Source: Desulfobacteraceae bacterium (GTDB lineage Bacteria; Desulfobacterota; Desulfobacteria; Desulfobacterales; Desulfosarcinaceae). Taken from it: a DNA stretch of 64,000 bases. Under the pieces are notes generated by a model that did no database searches, had not been told where the DNA came from, and saw only the letters and a program-made list of their open reading frames with translations. The position numbers and the translations under genes are program-made. Of this stretch, positions 12,267-53,371 are shown one piece after another; within the stretch, counting starts at the first letter, position 1; each line of letters begins with the position of its first letter. Location of the stretch: assembly GCA_024230435.1 (NCBI GenBank), contig JAAERL010000739.1, positions 1-64,000 of the forward strand. Direction: 5' to 3'.

Positions 12267-12389
12267 CCCGCTATTAATAGATATAAATCGATGTCCTGCA
12301 AAAAGGGCATCAGAATCATTTTTATTCGCCACAGCTCATGGCTTGAGAATGCGGCGATCAAGGTTAAAGATTGGCTTATTATCGTTTTA

Positions 12390-12548
12390 GGCGATTAGCG
12401 CAAAGAATATATACTTATTGCGCTTAAACTTTTTAGTCTTCAAGGCGGGCCAAAGTTTGCATAATTAACGTATCCGCATCTTTGGCACAACTTTAGAAAC
12501 CGGAAAAAAAAGACAAATAAGATGGTATATTCTTTGACACAAATCGCC
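12390..12548 (+). mobile_element. MITE-like palindromic element, subfamily A, copy A2
   Basis: 159 bp beginning GGCGATTAGCGCAAAGAATA and ending ACACAAATCGCC, flanked by TTA (12387-12389) and TTA (12549-12551). It lies between two convergent gene ends. Confidence 0.85.
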
Positions 12549-12572
12549 TTAGTGCAACGGCTATAACACAAA

Positions 12573-17272: not shown

Positions 17273-17275
17273 TAA

Positions 17276-17450
17276 GGCTATTTGTGTTAAATAATATACC
17301 ATCTTGCATGTCTTTTTTCCCGTCTTGTGTGTTATGCTAAAGGTGCGAATACGTTAAGTATGCAAACTTTGGCATACCTTGAAGACGAAAAAAAAATCTA
17401 AGTCCAATATGGTATCTGTTAAGATGCTAAATTTTTTTCCGCCAATCGCC
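17276..17450 (-). mobile_element. MITE-like palindromic element, subfamily A, copy A4
   Basis: 175 bp in reverse orientation, flanked by TAA (17273-17275) and TAA (17451-17453). Read on the minus strand, it carries a distinctive extra segment AGCATCTTAACAGATACCAT near its left end. That segment also occurs in the older copy interrupted by A5 at 19708. Confidence 0.8.
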
Positions 17451-17453
17451 TAA

Positions 17454-18048: not shown

Positions 18049-19707
18049 ATGAAAAAATGGATAATCTGTTTTGTTTTAGCGACTTGTTTTGTCTATTCTC
18101 ATACATGGGCGGTTGAACTACGGGAATATCAAGCCGGACAAGTTGATGTAGATGCACAGCGTGTCATCATGCGCAGCCGCACAAGTATACCCCATTGGGC
18201 GGACTTCAAACCCAGCAGCAATATAAAACATAAGAATTTTTTTAGCCGTTACAGGGGACTGTCCAGTCAAAACACTTTTAGACAAAAGAGGCAAATCATT
18301 GACAACCTGGGCATACGCCATACCTGCTATCAGCAATATTACAAAGGGCTTCGCGTCATCAATGCAGAGTATATCCTACATGAAAAAGGCAACCGTATCT
18401 TTAGGTCCAACGGTATCATCTTTTCCGGCTTGGCTGTTGATGTAAACCCCACATTGAAAGAACCGGAGGCCTTTGAACTTGCCTTGCAGCATGTTGGCGC
18501 GGATATTTATACCTGGCAGGTAAAAGCTGAAGATAACAAAAGAGCCTTTGGGGAATTGGCCATCAGCGGCCGCAATCCGTGGTTAGACAAAGAAAATCTG
18601 CATTTGGTTTACAGGTTTGATATCGAAACAGTGCAGCCATTGGCAAGATTTGTAATCGACATCAGTGCAAAAACCGGAGAGCTGATTAATAAAATAAGCA
18701 AGATGTATGACAATACATTAATTTCCAGTCCAAGTTATTACAACGCAGACGTTGATATCTGGGCCACCGAGAACAGCAGCAACAGCTCTTATACATCATA
18801 TGCGCTGTCTGAAACCATATCCGGCGGCGGCATAACCACCTACAACACTAAAGTGAACACTTTTTTGTTAAATTTCGGTATGGTTGTGCTTAAAAACACA
18901 TCCGAATCCGTGGTTTCGGTACCTTCCAGCTTTAAGCAGGACCCTGAGGCTGTCAATGTTCATTGGGCCATTGAACGAACCTATGATTATTTCTACAATA
19001 TTCACGGCCGCAGCAGTTATGATAACGCGGATAAAAAGATAGAAGCTTATGTTATGACCAATTACGGCGGCAATGCTTTTTATCTTAGCGATAAAATATA
19101 TTTTGGCGGTATAGCTGCAAACATAAGCGGTTATGAGTTTGGCCCTCTGATAAGCATTGATGTCGTGAGCCATGAATTTACGCATGGTATTACCGAGTAT
19201 TCGGCTGGCTTGGAATACAGATATGAATCAGGGGCGTTAAATGAGTCGTTTAGCGATATTTTCGGTGAAATGGTTGAAAAATACGCCTCTGGCGAAAATG
19301 ATTGGCTGATTGGTGACGATGTACATTTGAATGGAAATGGGATCAGAAATTTTATAAATCCCAATGAAGACAGACAGCCTGATACCTATAAGGGAGATTA
19401 CTGGCATGCGAACGCCTCTGATAACGGAGGGGTGCACATCAACAATGGCGTTGGTAACCACTGGTTTTACTTACTGTCCGAAGGCGGCAGCGGCACAAAC
19501 GACAATGGCGGCAAATATCAAGTCGAGGGAATTGGAACCGAAAAAGCCGCAAAAATCGCTTACCAGGCTTTAACCGCCTACCTTACCTCCGCATCAGATT
19601 ATGCCGATGCATATACCGCAACCATGGCTGCTGCACAGGAGTTGTTTTCAACTTCGGCTCAGGAAAGTGTTAAAAGCGCATGGGATGCAGTGGGCGTAAC
19701 GAATTAA
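18049..19707 (+). CDS. M4-family (thermolysin-like) metallopeptidase
   Basis: The 552-residue secreted protein has a signal peptide (residues 1-22) and an FTP/PepSY-type propeptide (about 60-220). The M4 catalytic domain follows. The zinc motif HEFTH is at 375-379 and the third ligand Glu399 lies in ALNESFSDIFG. The transition-state His463 is in DNGGVHINNGVGNHW. All thermolysin catalytic residues are therefore present. It ends ..AWDAVGVTN, the usual M4 C-terminus, with no extra C-terminal domain. The stop TAA at 19705-19707 is also the flanking triplet of a repeat element. A role in extracellular protein degradation is expected. Confidence 0.92.
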   Translation: MKKWIICFVLATCFVYSHTWAVELREYQAGQVDVDAQRVIMRSRTSIPHWADFKPSSNIKHKNFFSRYRGLSSQNTFRQKRQIIDNLGIRHTCYQQYYKGLRVINAEYILHEKGNRIFRSNGIIFSGLAVDVNPTLKEPEAFELALQHVGADIYTWQVKAEDNKRAFGELAISGRNPWLDKENLHLVYRFDIETVQPLARFVIDISAKTGELINKISKMYDNTLISSPSYYNADVDIWATENSSNSSYTSYALSETISGGGITTYNTKVNTFLLNFGMVVLKNTSESVVSVPSSFKQDPEAVNVHWAIERTYDYFYNIHGRSSYDNADKKIEAYVMTNYGGNAFYLSDKIYFGGIAANISGYEFGPLISIDVVSHEFTHGITEYSAGLEYRYESGALNESFSDIFGEMVEKYASGENDWLIGDDVHLNGNGIRNFINPNEDRQPDTYKGDYWHANASDNGGVHINNGVGNHWFYLLSEGGSGTNDNGGKYQVEGIGTEKAAKIAYQALTAYLTSASDYADAYTATMAAAQELFSTSAQESVKSAWDAVGVTN

Positions 19708-20010
19708 GGCGATTGGCGGAAAAATATAACATCTTAACAGATACCATATTGCGTTTAATTTTTTTTAGGCGATTGGCGGAAAAGAATATACCAGATTGAG
19801 CTTCGATTTTTTTTCGTATTCAAGGCGCGCCAAAGTTTTGCTGATCAGTTTGCATACTTAACGTATTCGCATCTTTGGCATAACGCACAAGACAGGAAAA
19901 AAGACAAGCAAGATGGTATTCTCTTTGATTGCAAATCGCCTTATCTTCAAGGTGTGTCAAAGTCAGCATACTTATTGTATCCGTGCTTTGTATCCGGGCT
20001 TTGACACGCC
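19708..20010 (+). mobile_element. older subfamily-A copy split by insertion of A5
   Basis: The left part, 19708-19764, begins GGCGATTGGCGGAAAAATAT and continues CATCTTAACAGATACCATAT, matching copy A4 read on the minus strand. The matching continuation TCTTCAAGGTGTGTCAAAG resumes at 19944, after the intact A5 copy. Its far end, to about 20010, is degraded but keeps the inner hairpin arms (GTGTGTCAAAG / CTTTGACACGCC). Confidence 0.7.
19768..19940 (+). mobile_element. MITE-like palindromic element, subfamily A, copy A5 (nested)
   Basis: An intact 173-bp copy from GGCGATTGGCGGAAAAGAAT to GATTGCAAATCGCC, flanked by TTA (19765-19767) and TTA (19941-19943). It lies inside an older related copy. Confidence 0.88.
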
Positions 20011-29240: not shown

Positions 29241-29329
29241 AAACCCGTGATAAGCGAATCAAGGCAAATTGCGCCGGACGGCAAAGCTGGTTCGGTGCGG
29301 TTTCGCCATTTCGTTTAATCTATGATTTA

Positions 29330-29502
29330 GGCGATTGGCGGAAAAGAATATACTATATTGAGCTTCGATTTTTTTTCGTATTCAAGGCGCGCCAAAGTTT
29401 TGCTGATCAGTTTGCATACTTTACGTATTCGCACCTTTGGCATAACGCACAAGACGGGAAAAAAGACATACAAGATGGTATATTCTTTAACTGTAAATCA
29501 CC
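29330..29502 (+). mobile_element. MITE-like palindromic element, subfamily A, copy A7
   Basis: 173 bp, nearly identical to A5, from GGCGATTGGCGGAAAAGAAT to CTGTAAATCACC. It is flanked by TTA (29327-29329) and TTA (29503-29505) and lies between convergent genes. Confidence 0.88.
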
Positions 29503-29542
29503 TTAATATCAGAGAAGATATCTTTTCTGGCGCCGCTGGATT

Positions 29543-33616: not shown

Positions 33617-33913
33617 TTAATGTCCATCGTTCGTGTGAAAGTCAATTACAAAAATGGCGCAAACGGCGCCGCTGCGTCATACCATTTATGGACACTATGT
33701 AAAGTTTAAGCTAAACTATAAAGATATATTAAAAAGATTGTATTTTATTGATAGCTTCTTTGGGAAATAGAAAATTTAGCGAAAAAGTGAGAGGCGAGGC
33801 CAAAATGTCTCAAATTTGAAATGAATAGCCGGTCTATTTGCCGGAAATTTGCGTCATTTTAGACCGTTCTCGCGCTTTTGCAGCCGATTTAATAATTTTC
33901 AAACAGGCTCTAA
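33617..33913. other. intergenic region, nothing assigned
   Basis: About 295 bp between murJ and copy A8. No gene or RNA is seen. Confidence 0.35.
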
Positions 33914-34072
33914 GGCGATTGGCGGAAAAGAATATACCATATTGGGCTTCGATTTTTTTCGTCTTCAAGGCATGCCAAAGTTTGCATACTTAACGTATTC
34001 GCACCGTTGACATAACACAAAAGACGGGAAAAAAGACATGCAAGATGGTATATTATTTAACTGTAAATCACC
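33914..34072 (+). mobile_element. MITE-like palindromic element, subfamily A, copy A8
   Basis: 159 bp in forward orientation, flanked by TAA (33911-33913) and TAA (34073-34075). Forward copies A2, A5, A7 and A9 have TTA on both sides. The flanks therefore co-vary with the site rather than being part of the element. The element lies directly upstream of cheD. Confidence 0.87.
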
Positions 34073-34094
34073 TAAGATACAAAAGGTCATTTCT

Positions 34095-34580
34095 ATGCCA
34101 TTTGTTCAGGTCGTAAAAGCCAACATCAAGTTCAGTCAAAACAAAAATGATGTTTTAACAGCAACGTCTCTGGGATGCTGTATAGGCGTTTCTTTATTTG
34201 ATTATCAAGTGAGCCTTGGAGGGTTGCTCATCAGCATCCTGCCGTATTCCAAAAAAGCGCAACGTGTTTATGTGGAAGAAAATCCATTTATGTTCGTGGA
34301 TTTGGCCATACCTTATTTTCTCAAGGCCGCCATGGAAAAGGGCATGCAACCCGAATCGATAAAAATCGTATTGGCTGGCGCCGGAAGGTTGGGCCTGCGG
34401 CAAAGCCCCTTCGATGTCGGTACCATGAACAGCCAATCGGCCCTGGCATCTCTTGAACAATTCGGATTAAAACCTGTGTATCAAAACATTGGAGGCAGAT
34501 TAAACCGGTCAATGCAATTGGAGCTTAAAACAGGTACTACAAAAGTCCTGGCTGCCGGAGAAGAAATCGGAAAAATATGA
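34095..34580 (+). CDS. CheD-like protein lacking the catalytic histidine
   Basis: The 161-residue protein starts at ATG 34095 (AAAAGG upstream); a longer frame would begin inside repeat A8. CheD family features are TSLGCCIGVSLFD (catalytic Cys position = C29, with the usual Ser replaced by C28), LVLAGAG-like IVLAGAGRLG and PVYQNIGGRLNRSMQLEL. The family motif GGxxHxxLP here reads GGLLISILP, so the catalytic His is Ile46. Deamidase activity on receptors is therefore doubtful, and a CheC/CheX-binding role is more likely. It overlaps the HDOD gene by four bases (ATGA), so the two are translationally coupled. Confidence 0.88.
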   Translation: MPFVQVVKANIKFSQNKNDVLTATSLGCCIGVSLFDYQVSLGGLLISILPYSKKAQRVYVEENPFMFVDLAIPYFLKAAMEKGMQPESIKIVLAGAGRLGLRQSPFDVGTMNSQSALASLEQFGLKPVYQNIGGRLNRSMQLELKTGTTKVLAAGEEIGKI

Positions 34581-35419
34581 GCGTTCAAAAAATTATTGAC
34601 GAAATCGAATCAATGGCTCCGTTTTCACAAAGCAGCCTCCAGATCATTGAAATGATGTCTTGTCCTGAAAGCGGATCGTCTAAAGTGGCCAGGGTGGTAA
34701 AAAAGGATGCCAATCTGGCGGCAAACGTTCTCAGACTTGCCAATTCATCTTTTTTTGGTTTGAAACAAAAAGTTGACTCTATCGATCATGCGGTAACAAT
34801 TATCGGCAGTAAAAGGGTATTAGAAATTGCCCTGTATTCAATGACCAGTGCGGCCTTAAAAAAACCGCAATTGGGGTATGCGTTAAAAGGTGGTGAACTG
34901 TGGCGTCATACCGTTATAGGAGCCGCATTTGCTCGAGAAATCGCCATAGAGCAAAACCTGGACAATGCCGAGGTTGTATTCACAGCGGCTCTGATCAAAG
35001 ACTTAGGAAAAGTGATTCTCAGCCGCCACCTGGCAGAAGCAGAAAAAGAAATAGACCAACTGGTTTTTGAAAAAAAGATGCCGTTTTGCGAGGCTGAAAA
35101 AAAGATTCTGGGCATCGATCATGCCGAGTTGGCAGCTATAGCCTTTGAACGCTGGAGTTTCCCGGAAAACTTGATCCACGTTGTCAGGAATCATCATCTT
35201 CAAAAAGAGCCGGTAATTGCACCCAAGGAAACGTGCATTGTCTTTTTGGGGGATGTAATTTGCTCAATTTTGGGGATTGGTTCCGGCAAAGACGGTTTGG
35301 CCTATCGTTTCTCAGACGATATACTACTTCGTTATTTTGACATCCATAATTTTCACAACCTTGTTTCATCTCTTTTTAGCAGGATATCACAGCTCGATCA
35401 ATTGGCGGATTTGCTTTAG
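34577..35419 (+). CDS. HDOD domain protein
   Basis: The 280-residue protein is a single HDOD domain (PF08668): LPPFSQ-like APFSQSSLQIIEMM, DANLAANVLRLANSSFFGLK, IDHAVTIIGSKRVLEIAL, and the degenerate HD site ALIKDLGKVIL, where His is replaced by Lys. LGIDHAELAAIAFERWSFPE follows. HDOD proteins act as signalling scaffolds and are usually non-catalytic. The start overlaps the CheD-like gene by four bases. The stop TAG (35417-35419) is formed by the TTA flank and first G of the adjoining repeat element. Confidence 0.9.
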   Translation: MSVQKIIDEIESMAPFSQSSLQIIEMMSCPESGSSKVARVVKKDANLAANVLRLANSSFFGLKQKVDSIDHAVTIIGSKRVLEIALYSMTSAALKKPQLGYALKGGELWRHTVIGAAFAREIAIEQNLDNAEVVFTAALIKDLGKVILSRHLAEAEKEIDQLVFEKKMPFCEAEKKILGIDHAELAAIAFERWSFPENLIHVVRNHHLQKEPVIAPKETCIVFLGDVICSILGIGSGKDGLAYRFSDDILLRYFDIHNFHNLVSSLFSRISQLDQLADLL

Positions 35420-35548
35420 GCGATTTGTATTAAGGCGCGTTAATGGGTGCATATTAATTGATACACTAATTGTCTGTGCACATTGGCGTAACACAAAAAA
35501 CGAATTCAAGAACAAGCATAAGCGGTATATTCGCATCTTCTGCGAGCC
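35419..35548 (+). mobile_element. chimeric repeat element, copy B5
   Basis: 130 bp. The left end is subfamily A (GGCGATTTGTATTAAGGCGC). The interior and right end are subfamily B (TAATTGTCTGTGCACATTGG ... TTCGCATCTTCTGCGAGCC), closely matching B1. The flanks differ (TTA left, TAA right), as expected for a recombinant. Both convergent neighbouring genes end in its termini. Confidence 0.7.
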
Positions 35549-36378
35549 TAAAAAGCATATGCCCGTCCCGCAAGGCTCTGAATAAATTTGCAGCACTTAT
35601 CCACAACAGCCTGTTTTGCCTGACGGTGGGGTACATGGCCACACTCCGGGATAAAGCAGGTTTCACCTGAGCCGCCCAACCCGTTGATAATTGAGACTGC
35701 CTGTTCTGGCAAACCGTATTGATCGTCCTCGCCCTGGATGGCCAAAACCGGGCAGTGAATATTTTTGAGCATATGCTCGATATTCCAAGTGGAGAATTCT
35801 TCCGACATCCAGGTCTTTGCCCAGCGCCAAAACATGCTATCGGTATTTTGGCCATGGAACTTGGTCAAGCGCTGTTTCAGGTTCGAATCTTTGTAGTTAT
35901 GAACCGCGTTTTGCACTCCCCGGATCGTCAGATAATCTACATAAACATGCGCAGCCTCTGTTATAACAGCTGTTACGTGCTTGCCATAACGGGCGGTGTA
36001 CATAAGGGCGATAGTGCCTCCATCGCTGTGCCCAAAAAAAATTGAATTTTTTATGCCTTCTTTTTGGAGAAGTTCCGGCAAAAAAGAAAATGCTTCCTTT
36101 TCCAAGTAAGTTAAATCAATTTCATGACTGGCAAGAGGATCGGAGCCGCCATGACCTGACCGGTCGAATAAAAATCCGTCCAAACCTGTGGCTGTAGTGA
36201 TTTTTTGCGGAAAATCCCCCCACATGTCAATGCAACCCAATCCCTCGTGCAGAAAAACGAGTATAGGATCTGATCTCTTTTTTCTGAAGGTATGGCGAAG
36301 CCACCTGGCGCCAATCCTGACGCCGTTTACCTTCAGGTGTTTATCCTTGTGGACGCTATCCGAAAATACAAGTTGCAT
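35548..36378 (-). CDS. alpha/beta hydrolase
   Basis: The protein, 276 residues from ATG 36378, has the alpha/beta hydrolase fold. The oxyanion region is FLHEGLGCIDMWGDFP and the strand DGFLFDRSGHGGSDP follows. The nucleophile elbow is GHSDGG with Ser118. The acid lies in LAIQGEDDQYG and the His in ECGHVPHRQ, so the triad is complete. The longer frame starts with TTG inside a repeat end and is rejected. The substrate is unknown; an esterase or C-C hydrolase is possible. Its stop TAG lies in the end of repeat B5, so its last residues (AYAF) may be altered from the ancestral ones. Confidence 0.88.
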   Translation of the reverse strand: MQLVFSDSVHKDKHLKVNGVRIGARWLRHTFRKKRSDPILVFLHEGLGCIDMWGDFPQKITTATGLDGFLFDRSGHGGSDPLASHEIDLTYLEKEAFSFLPELLQKEGIKNSIFFGHSDGGTIALMYTARYGKHVTAVITEAAHVYVDYLTIRGVQNAVHNYKDSNLKQRLTKFHGQNTDSMFWRWAKTWMSEEFSTWNIEHMLKNIHCPVLAIQGEDDQYGLPEQAVSIINGLGGSGETCFIPECGHVPHRQAKQAVVDKCCKFIQSLAGRAYAF

Positions 36379-36396
36379 GATTTCATACCATTTTTT

Positions 36397-36414
36397 TCTT
36401 AACTGCAAATCGCC
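36397..36414 (+). repeat. solo right end of a subfamily-A element
   Basis: TTCTTAACTGCAAATCGCC followed by TTA is a typical A right end without its other half. It lies directly upstream of the hydrolase start codon. Confidence 0.55.
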
Positions 36415-36485
36415 TTAACGCTATCTTATCATCATAGCCGGTTTGCTGCAAAAAAGGCGGCCCTGACAAAAACAATCCTTTTTGC

Positions 36486-42945: not shown

Positions 42946-43155
42946 ATGGAACAACATTTTATACAATTCTTGCTCTCATTGATTTATACCGGTTTAGGTT
43001 TGCTGGTATTTGCGGCGGCTTTTTTCATTTTTGAAAAAATTACGCCGTTTTCCATCCGAAAAGAAATCGAAGATGATCAAAATATTGCCCTGGGCATCAT
43101 TTTCGGATCGGTGATTATTGGCCTGGCTATCATCATTGCCTCGGCTATTGGTTAG
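42946..43155 (+). CDS. DUF350 family membrane protein
   Basis: The 69-residue protein has two TM helices (about 8-28 and 46-68) with IEDDQNIALGIIFGSVIIGL, the DUF350 motif. The start has AAGGAC upstream. Its stop TAG (43153-43155) is made from the TTA flank and first G of repeat B1, which was inserted exactly at the gene end and separates it from the aminopropyltransferase gene. Confidence 0.85.
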   Translation: MEQHFIQFLLSLIYTGLGLLVFAAAFFIFEKITPFSIRKEIEDDQNIALGIIFGSVIIGLAIIIASAIG

Positions 43156-43313
43156 GGTCTTGGAAGATGCCAATATACCGTTATTGCGCCGGATTTGGAT
43201 TCGTTTTCAAGACGCGTCAATGGGTGCTTACTCATTGTCTGTGCACATTGCCGCAACACAGAAACCGAATTTAAGGACAAGCATAAGTGGTACATCCGCA
43301 TCTTCCACGACCC
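43155..43313 (+). mobile_element. MITE-like element, subfamily B, copy B1 (inside an operon)
   Basis: 159 bp from GGGTCTTGGAAGATGCCAAT to CGCATCTTCCACGACCC, flanked by TTA (43152-43154) and TTA (43314-43316). The best-preserved B copy. Confidence 0.87.
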
Positions 43314-43362
43314 TTAGTGTTCATCCATAAATGGCATCCGGCCGATTCATAGCGAAACGAAA

Positions 43363-53130: not shown

Positions 53131-53199
53131 GAAGGATAAATTTGAATTAAATTGGTTTTGTATCCGATATTAAAAAAAAAATGAGAAAATAAGAACTTA

Positions 53200-53368
53200 G
53201 GCGATTGGCGGAAAAGAATATACCAGATTGAGCAGGATTTTTTTTCGTATTCAAGACGCGCCAAAGATTGATGATCAGTTTGCATACTTAACGTATTCGG
53301 GCTTTGGCATAACGCACAAGACGGGAAAAAAGACATACAAGACGGTATATTCTTTAACACAAATCGCC
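53200..53368 (+). mobile_element. MITE-like palindromic element, subfamily A, copy A9
   Basis: 169 bp from GGCGATTGGCGGAAAAGAAT to TAACACAAATCGCC, flanked by TTA (53197-53199) and TTA (53369-53371). Confidence 0.88.
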
Positions 53369-53371
53369 TTA

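Follow-up and report, generated by a model that had tools for sequence, protein, structure and literature searches.

At positions 35416-35551 of the 64,000-nucleotide stretch analysed here (the window), a short repeat lies between two convergent genes and contributes one base to the stop codon of each. This raises the question of whether such elements create the stop codons of their neighbours, seek them out, or settle on stops that already exist. The initial annotation had described element ends as supplying the stops of four genes in the window, and on re-inspection all four stop-codon positions that it gave are correct. Its account of their composition, a flank completed by the first base of the element, is accurate for the HDOD, hydrolase and DUF350 genes and does not apply to the metallopeptidase, whose TAA consists wholly of flank. 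The genes and the elements that adjoin them are as follows.

34577-35419, + strand: HDOD-domain gene, 280 aa; stop TAG 35417-35419, made of flank TA and the element's first G
35416-35551, unstranded: hybrid MITE-like element with a type-1 left end GGCGATTTG and a type-2 core and right end (GCATCTTCTGCGAGCC)
35548-36408, - strand: alpha/beta hydrolase gene, convergent with the HDOD gene across the element; stop TAG 35550-35548, made of flank TA and the element's terminal G
42946-43155, + strand: DUF350-type small membrane protein gene, 69 aa (the DUF350 name is that of the initial annotation); stop TAG 43153-43155, made of flank TA and the element's terminal G
43152-43316, unstranded: type-2 element (GGGTCTTGGAAGATGC...GCATCTTCCACGACCC) with an exact TTA/TTA duplication; empty site TTAG
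18049-19707, + strand: M4 (thermolysin-like) metallopeptidase gene; stop TAA 19705-19707, which is the target triplet of the adjoining element
19708-20010, + strand: outer type-1 element with a degenerate right end, broken by a nested copy; its right boundary is approximate

The repeat family and its target site

The elements are MITE-like non-autonomous DNA transposons with two related end types, GGCGATT (type 1) and GGGTC (type 2), that also form hybrids. A 160-bp consensus built from complete copies carries long inverted ends (GGCGATTGGCGGAAAAGAATATACC...GGTATATTCTTTAACACAAATCGCC), and the pattern TWAGGCGATTKR yields 586 matches in the 6.13-Mb genome to which the window belongs (the window genome) vs 9 for the reversed control. 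Within 2.11 Mb of this genome there are 230 non-overlapping matches; both ends are present in 105 copies, mostly 150-189 bp long, and identical TAA or TTA flanks, a 3-bp target duplication summarised as TWA, border 90 of the 105. By extrapolation the whole window genome holds roughly 670 copies, fragments counted in. No element-borne gene was noticed in passing within the copies, and no Rfam match at gathering score was obtained in the window, where the further copies are these.

1974-2149, - strand: complete type-1 element, TAA/TAA flanks
12387-12551, - strand: complete type-1 element, TTA/TTA flanks
17273-17453, - strand: complete type-1 element, TAA/TAA flanks
19765-19943, + strand: nested type-1 element, TTA/TTA flanks, inside the outer element 19708-20010
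29327-29505, + strand: complete type-1 element, TTA/TTA flanks
33911-34075, + strand: complete type-1 element, TAA/TAA flanks
36395-36417, - strand: solo type-1 end (GGCGATTTGCAGTTAAG) with flank TTA, just upstream of the hydrolase gene
53197-53371, + strand: complete type-1 element, TTA/TTA flanks

The nested copy sits at a TTA of the outer copy's T-rich tract, beyond which remnants of the outer copy resume. The longest reading frame upstream of the HDOD gene (34038-34580) has its ATG in the element 33911-34075, and its true start probably lies further in. Contigs of the window genome often break within the element (e.g. C144:86446-86457, C814:1-138 and C1055:1-150), and part of the fragmentation of the assembly into 1238 contigs is likely due to the repeat.

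Type-2 ends (GGGTCKTGGAAGATGC) are likewise accompanied by TWA duplications, and five of the eight hybrid elements, each with one GGCGATT and one GGGTC end, have exact ones (C1166:92126-92307, C284:17269-17436, C144:86279-86457, C610:54749-54977 and C138:28170-28440 of the window genome, G000). From these exactly duplicated hybrids we therefore infer that both end types are probably moved by one transposition system.

Insertion in the window genome follows the motif Y-TWA-R, with C or T at -1 in 78 of 90 cases and A or G at +3 in 67 of 90; sites with neither feature account for 22% of the background and for none of the 87 usable insertions. This Y/R preference was not seen in G019 (n=34), a genome of a different genus, which together with G016 (71 and 23 matches, respectively) was the only one to show clear enrichment of the repeat among 59 other genomes of the family and order. 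Two G019 relics (L196 and L200) of 24-36 bp keep both ends and the TWA flanks, and probably arose when internal sequence was deleted at short repeats.

IS5-family elements (IS1031 group) and PIF/Harbinger elements generate 3-bp TNA/TWA duplications. The present family resembles both in duplicating TWA, and differs from both in that no DDE transposase gene bounded by the family's own terminal repeats was found: none of the PF13340, PF13359 and PF01609 hits has matching ends, no transposase was found between paired ends, and inspection by eye of the end positions in G019 revealed no 1-3 kb end pair. The IS5-like copies of contig C541 seem to terminate in GAGCGTGTCTG, a sequence different from the ends of the MITEs. 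The family is accordingly assigned to neither the IS5/IS1031 nor the PIF/Harbinger type.

Placement of insertions at gene ends

The window genome was sampled as stretches amounting to 2.1 of its 6.1 Mb. The 90 copies with matching duplications were spliced out, each leaving one duplication behind; genes were called on the resulting empty sequence with a purpose-written hexamer model, which probably overlooks some genes, and the insertion sites and all remaining TWA sites were classified against the called genes. An original stop codon is overlapped by 9 of the 87 usable insertions (10.3%); among random non-coding TWA sites the share is 4.1% (p=0.009), so that, measured against random TWA, the enrichment of element ends at stops on which the initial annotation had staked its case is indeed found. 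When the duplication filter is dropped, 15 of 129 complete elements of the window genome abut a stop (p=2.7e-4), and in G019 stop overlap reaches 7 of 30 against 4.7% (p=4e-4); all these p values, like those below, were obtained under several related nulls and carry no correction for it. Overlap above random TWA in two genomes bears out the suggestion that stop codons, given the TWA target, are places where the element would naturally land.

Single-ended copies in their raw form gave a very strong association with stops (18 of 123), which was discarded, survivorship being suggested; several of them keep the stop-forming flank and have the other copy of the duplication mutated (TCA, AAA, ATA or TGA).

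The excess extends well past the stop codon itself. In the window genome, 20 insertions lie within 50 bp of a stop vs 8.4 expected and 30 within 100 bp vs 13.7, convergent gaps hold 19 of 78 insertions vs 12% of the background, and counts near gene starts are at or below expectation, a depletion that was not seen in the small G019 sample. Such a bias toward 3' ends and convergent gaps would be expected if the elements were retained there for a role in terminating transcription or in stabilising mRNA 3' ends, and the transcript of the element 33911-34075 adopts a single long hairpin fold (-41.9 kcal/mol, z -3.8). We nevertheless regard this function as unlikely, given that no terminator-like site occurs within 33911-34075 or 35416-35551, that the terminator-like sites of the scanned region do not exceed those of shuffles, and that the patchy presence among relatives suggests a parasite.

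A transposase or host factor (e.g. a terminating ribosome or a DNA structure at the 3' end) could also steer insertion to stops, in keeping with an overlap with stops that, in two genera, is 2.5 to 5 times as frequent as at random non-coding TWA. When the null is confined to TWA sites of the same gap, 9 overlaps are observed vs 6.0 expected in the window genome and 7 vs 4.1 in G019; the pooled excess of 16 vs 10.1 (p=0.02) favours steering, but with the same-gap null weighted by Y-TWA-R the window genome gives 9 vs 6.4 (p=0.16), and the excess extends at a similar level, about two-fold, across the entire 3' flank, as measured over the first 50-100 bp past the stop. Most of the stop excess reflects a broader preference for the 3' ends of genes, and little special affinity for stop codons remains, although the mild pooled residue may reflect some stop-specific retention or targeting. 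Steering as the principal cause is considered quite improbable.

Origin of the stop codons

For every exact-duplication insertion of the two genomes that overlaps a stop (16 of 16), the stop is already present in the rebuilt empty site, as TAA in 14 and TAG in two, and the rebuilt empty site of the DUF350 gene, GGTTAGTG, likewise retains its TAG. The number of matching-duplication copies with an end abutting a stop is nine before splicing and nine after, and therefore no truncation is seen. Enumeration of the possible overlaps between TWA and a stop codon leaves three registers, TAA on TAA, TTA on TAA and TTA on TAG, all of which read TAA or TAG after insertion, and TGA stops cannot be overlapped; the initial G of the element ensures that every register rebuilds a stop. 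The elements do not create these stops, and no case of a created stop was found, contrary to the idea that they supply them. The companion proposal, that insertions at gene ends would be nearly harmless, is consistent with stop overlaps leaving the protein intact.

Comparison of C-termini with relatives, put forward together with the idea of element-supplied stops, speaks against it: the three proteins compared finish about where their relatives do. The metallopeptidase alignment reaches the last residues of thermolysin, the HDOD C-terminus is level with those of its relatives, and the hydrolase extends about 6 residues beyond its shortest relatives, inside their variable tail.

The element 35416-35551 has TTA on its left and TAA on its right (+ strand) and hence no exact duplication. 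Its right end is of type 2, GGCTCGCAGAAGATGC, and its core and right end derive from this second, older-looking type; it likely arose by a deletion that fused two insertions, one at the end of each gene. Alternatively, the hydrolase might be a passenger in a 1-kb unit resembling a mobile insertion cassette (35416-36417, 1002 bp), of which the HDOD boundary would be the left end. The solo type-1 ends of this stretch share a TTA flank, a duplication that 35416-35551 lacks, and they form 17-bp imperfect inverted ends, the first 17 bp of both being alike. A passenger unit is nonetheless very unlikely, as ends are frequent, at about one per 10 kb, other 1-3 kb end pairs hold ordinary genes as they would by chance (fumarase, leuC and lysS homologues, named by eye from translations), and the hydrolase is single-copy in the window genome.

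That insertions truncate or trim genes and that element ends become new stops is extremely unlikely: the element's first G is part of the TAG stops, and trimming by a few residues is possible at the HDOD and hydrolase genes, which have no clean empty site, but the pre-existing stops contradict it for exact-duplication copies and the agreement of the HDOD, hydrolase and peptidase C-termini with relatives stands against it.

Proposed mechanism and related systems

Overall, we favour, with a probability of about 80%, the reading that these TWA-duplicating MITEs hit stop codons mainly as TWA sites in tolerated positions, the stops being neither sought nor created. A DDE-type transposase, presumably working in trans, would insert the elements at Y-TWA-R and duplicate the TWA. 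Where the target TAA is the stop itself, the duplicated TAA stays as the stop; where the target is a T followed by the TA of TAA or TAG, the terminal G of the element completes a TAG. Insertion on a stop codon in this way always keeps termination at the same codon. Insertions at stops, in 3' flanks and in convergent gaps would be nearly neutral and so accumulate, and those in coding DNA would be purged, if selection acts as we suppose.

A stronger version, in which Y-TWA-R and the terminal G were themselves selected so that stop insertions regenerate the stop, seems to us quite improbable; if it held, the element would possess a neutral niche at gene ends, letting copies reach hundreds.

The phenomenon has parallels in other bacteria. 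In Streptococcus pneumoniae, the stop codon of 36 genes is formed by a BOX repeat, with no strong sign that these genes were truncated, and the gaps between convergent genes contain BOX, RUP, SPRITE and IS elements more often than expected, which the authors read as relaxed selection (PMC3049150). The present family resembles BOX, RUP and SPRITE as short palindromic non-autonomous repeats with a convergent-gap bias (PMC3049150); unlike them, it duplicates TWA and retains stops through the target triplet and the terminal G, and the likeness is one of kind, with no sequence relation shown. In Coxiella burnetii, QMITE2 (150-190 bp) lies mainly in 3' untranslated regions and copies of QMITE1 overlap the C-terminal ends of ORFs (PMC5896051, PMC10969869). 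Both are comparable to our elements as MITEs of similar size biased to gene 3' ends. However, the direct repeats of QMITE2 are 7-11 nt long and variable in sequence, and one insertion adds 33 codons to enhC (PMC5896051, PMC10969869). In the present family, by contrast, hardly any in-frame read-through into the element was seen. The Chunjie MITE of Geobacter uraniireducens (178-235 bp) is similarly intergenic, has conserved terminal repeats and includes many partial copies, but it numbers tens of copies where the present family numbers several hundred (PMC10969869). A prior description of this repeat family was not found in the open-access literature; the phenomenon is known in kind, and what appears to be new in detail is this particular family, the motif it targets and the empty-site test.

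Hybrids between the two end types suggest a single transposition system that serves both. For annotation, a gene whose final bases are formed by a repeat is not necessarily truncated. A TWA duplication combined with an initial G gives a checkable rule, namely that stop codons are overlapped only in registers that rebuild them, and this rule helps to explain the harmless presence of a high-copy parasite at gene ends.
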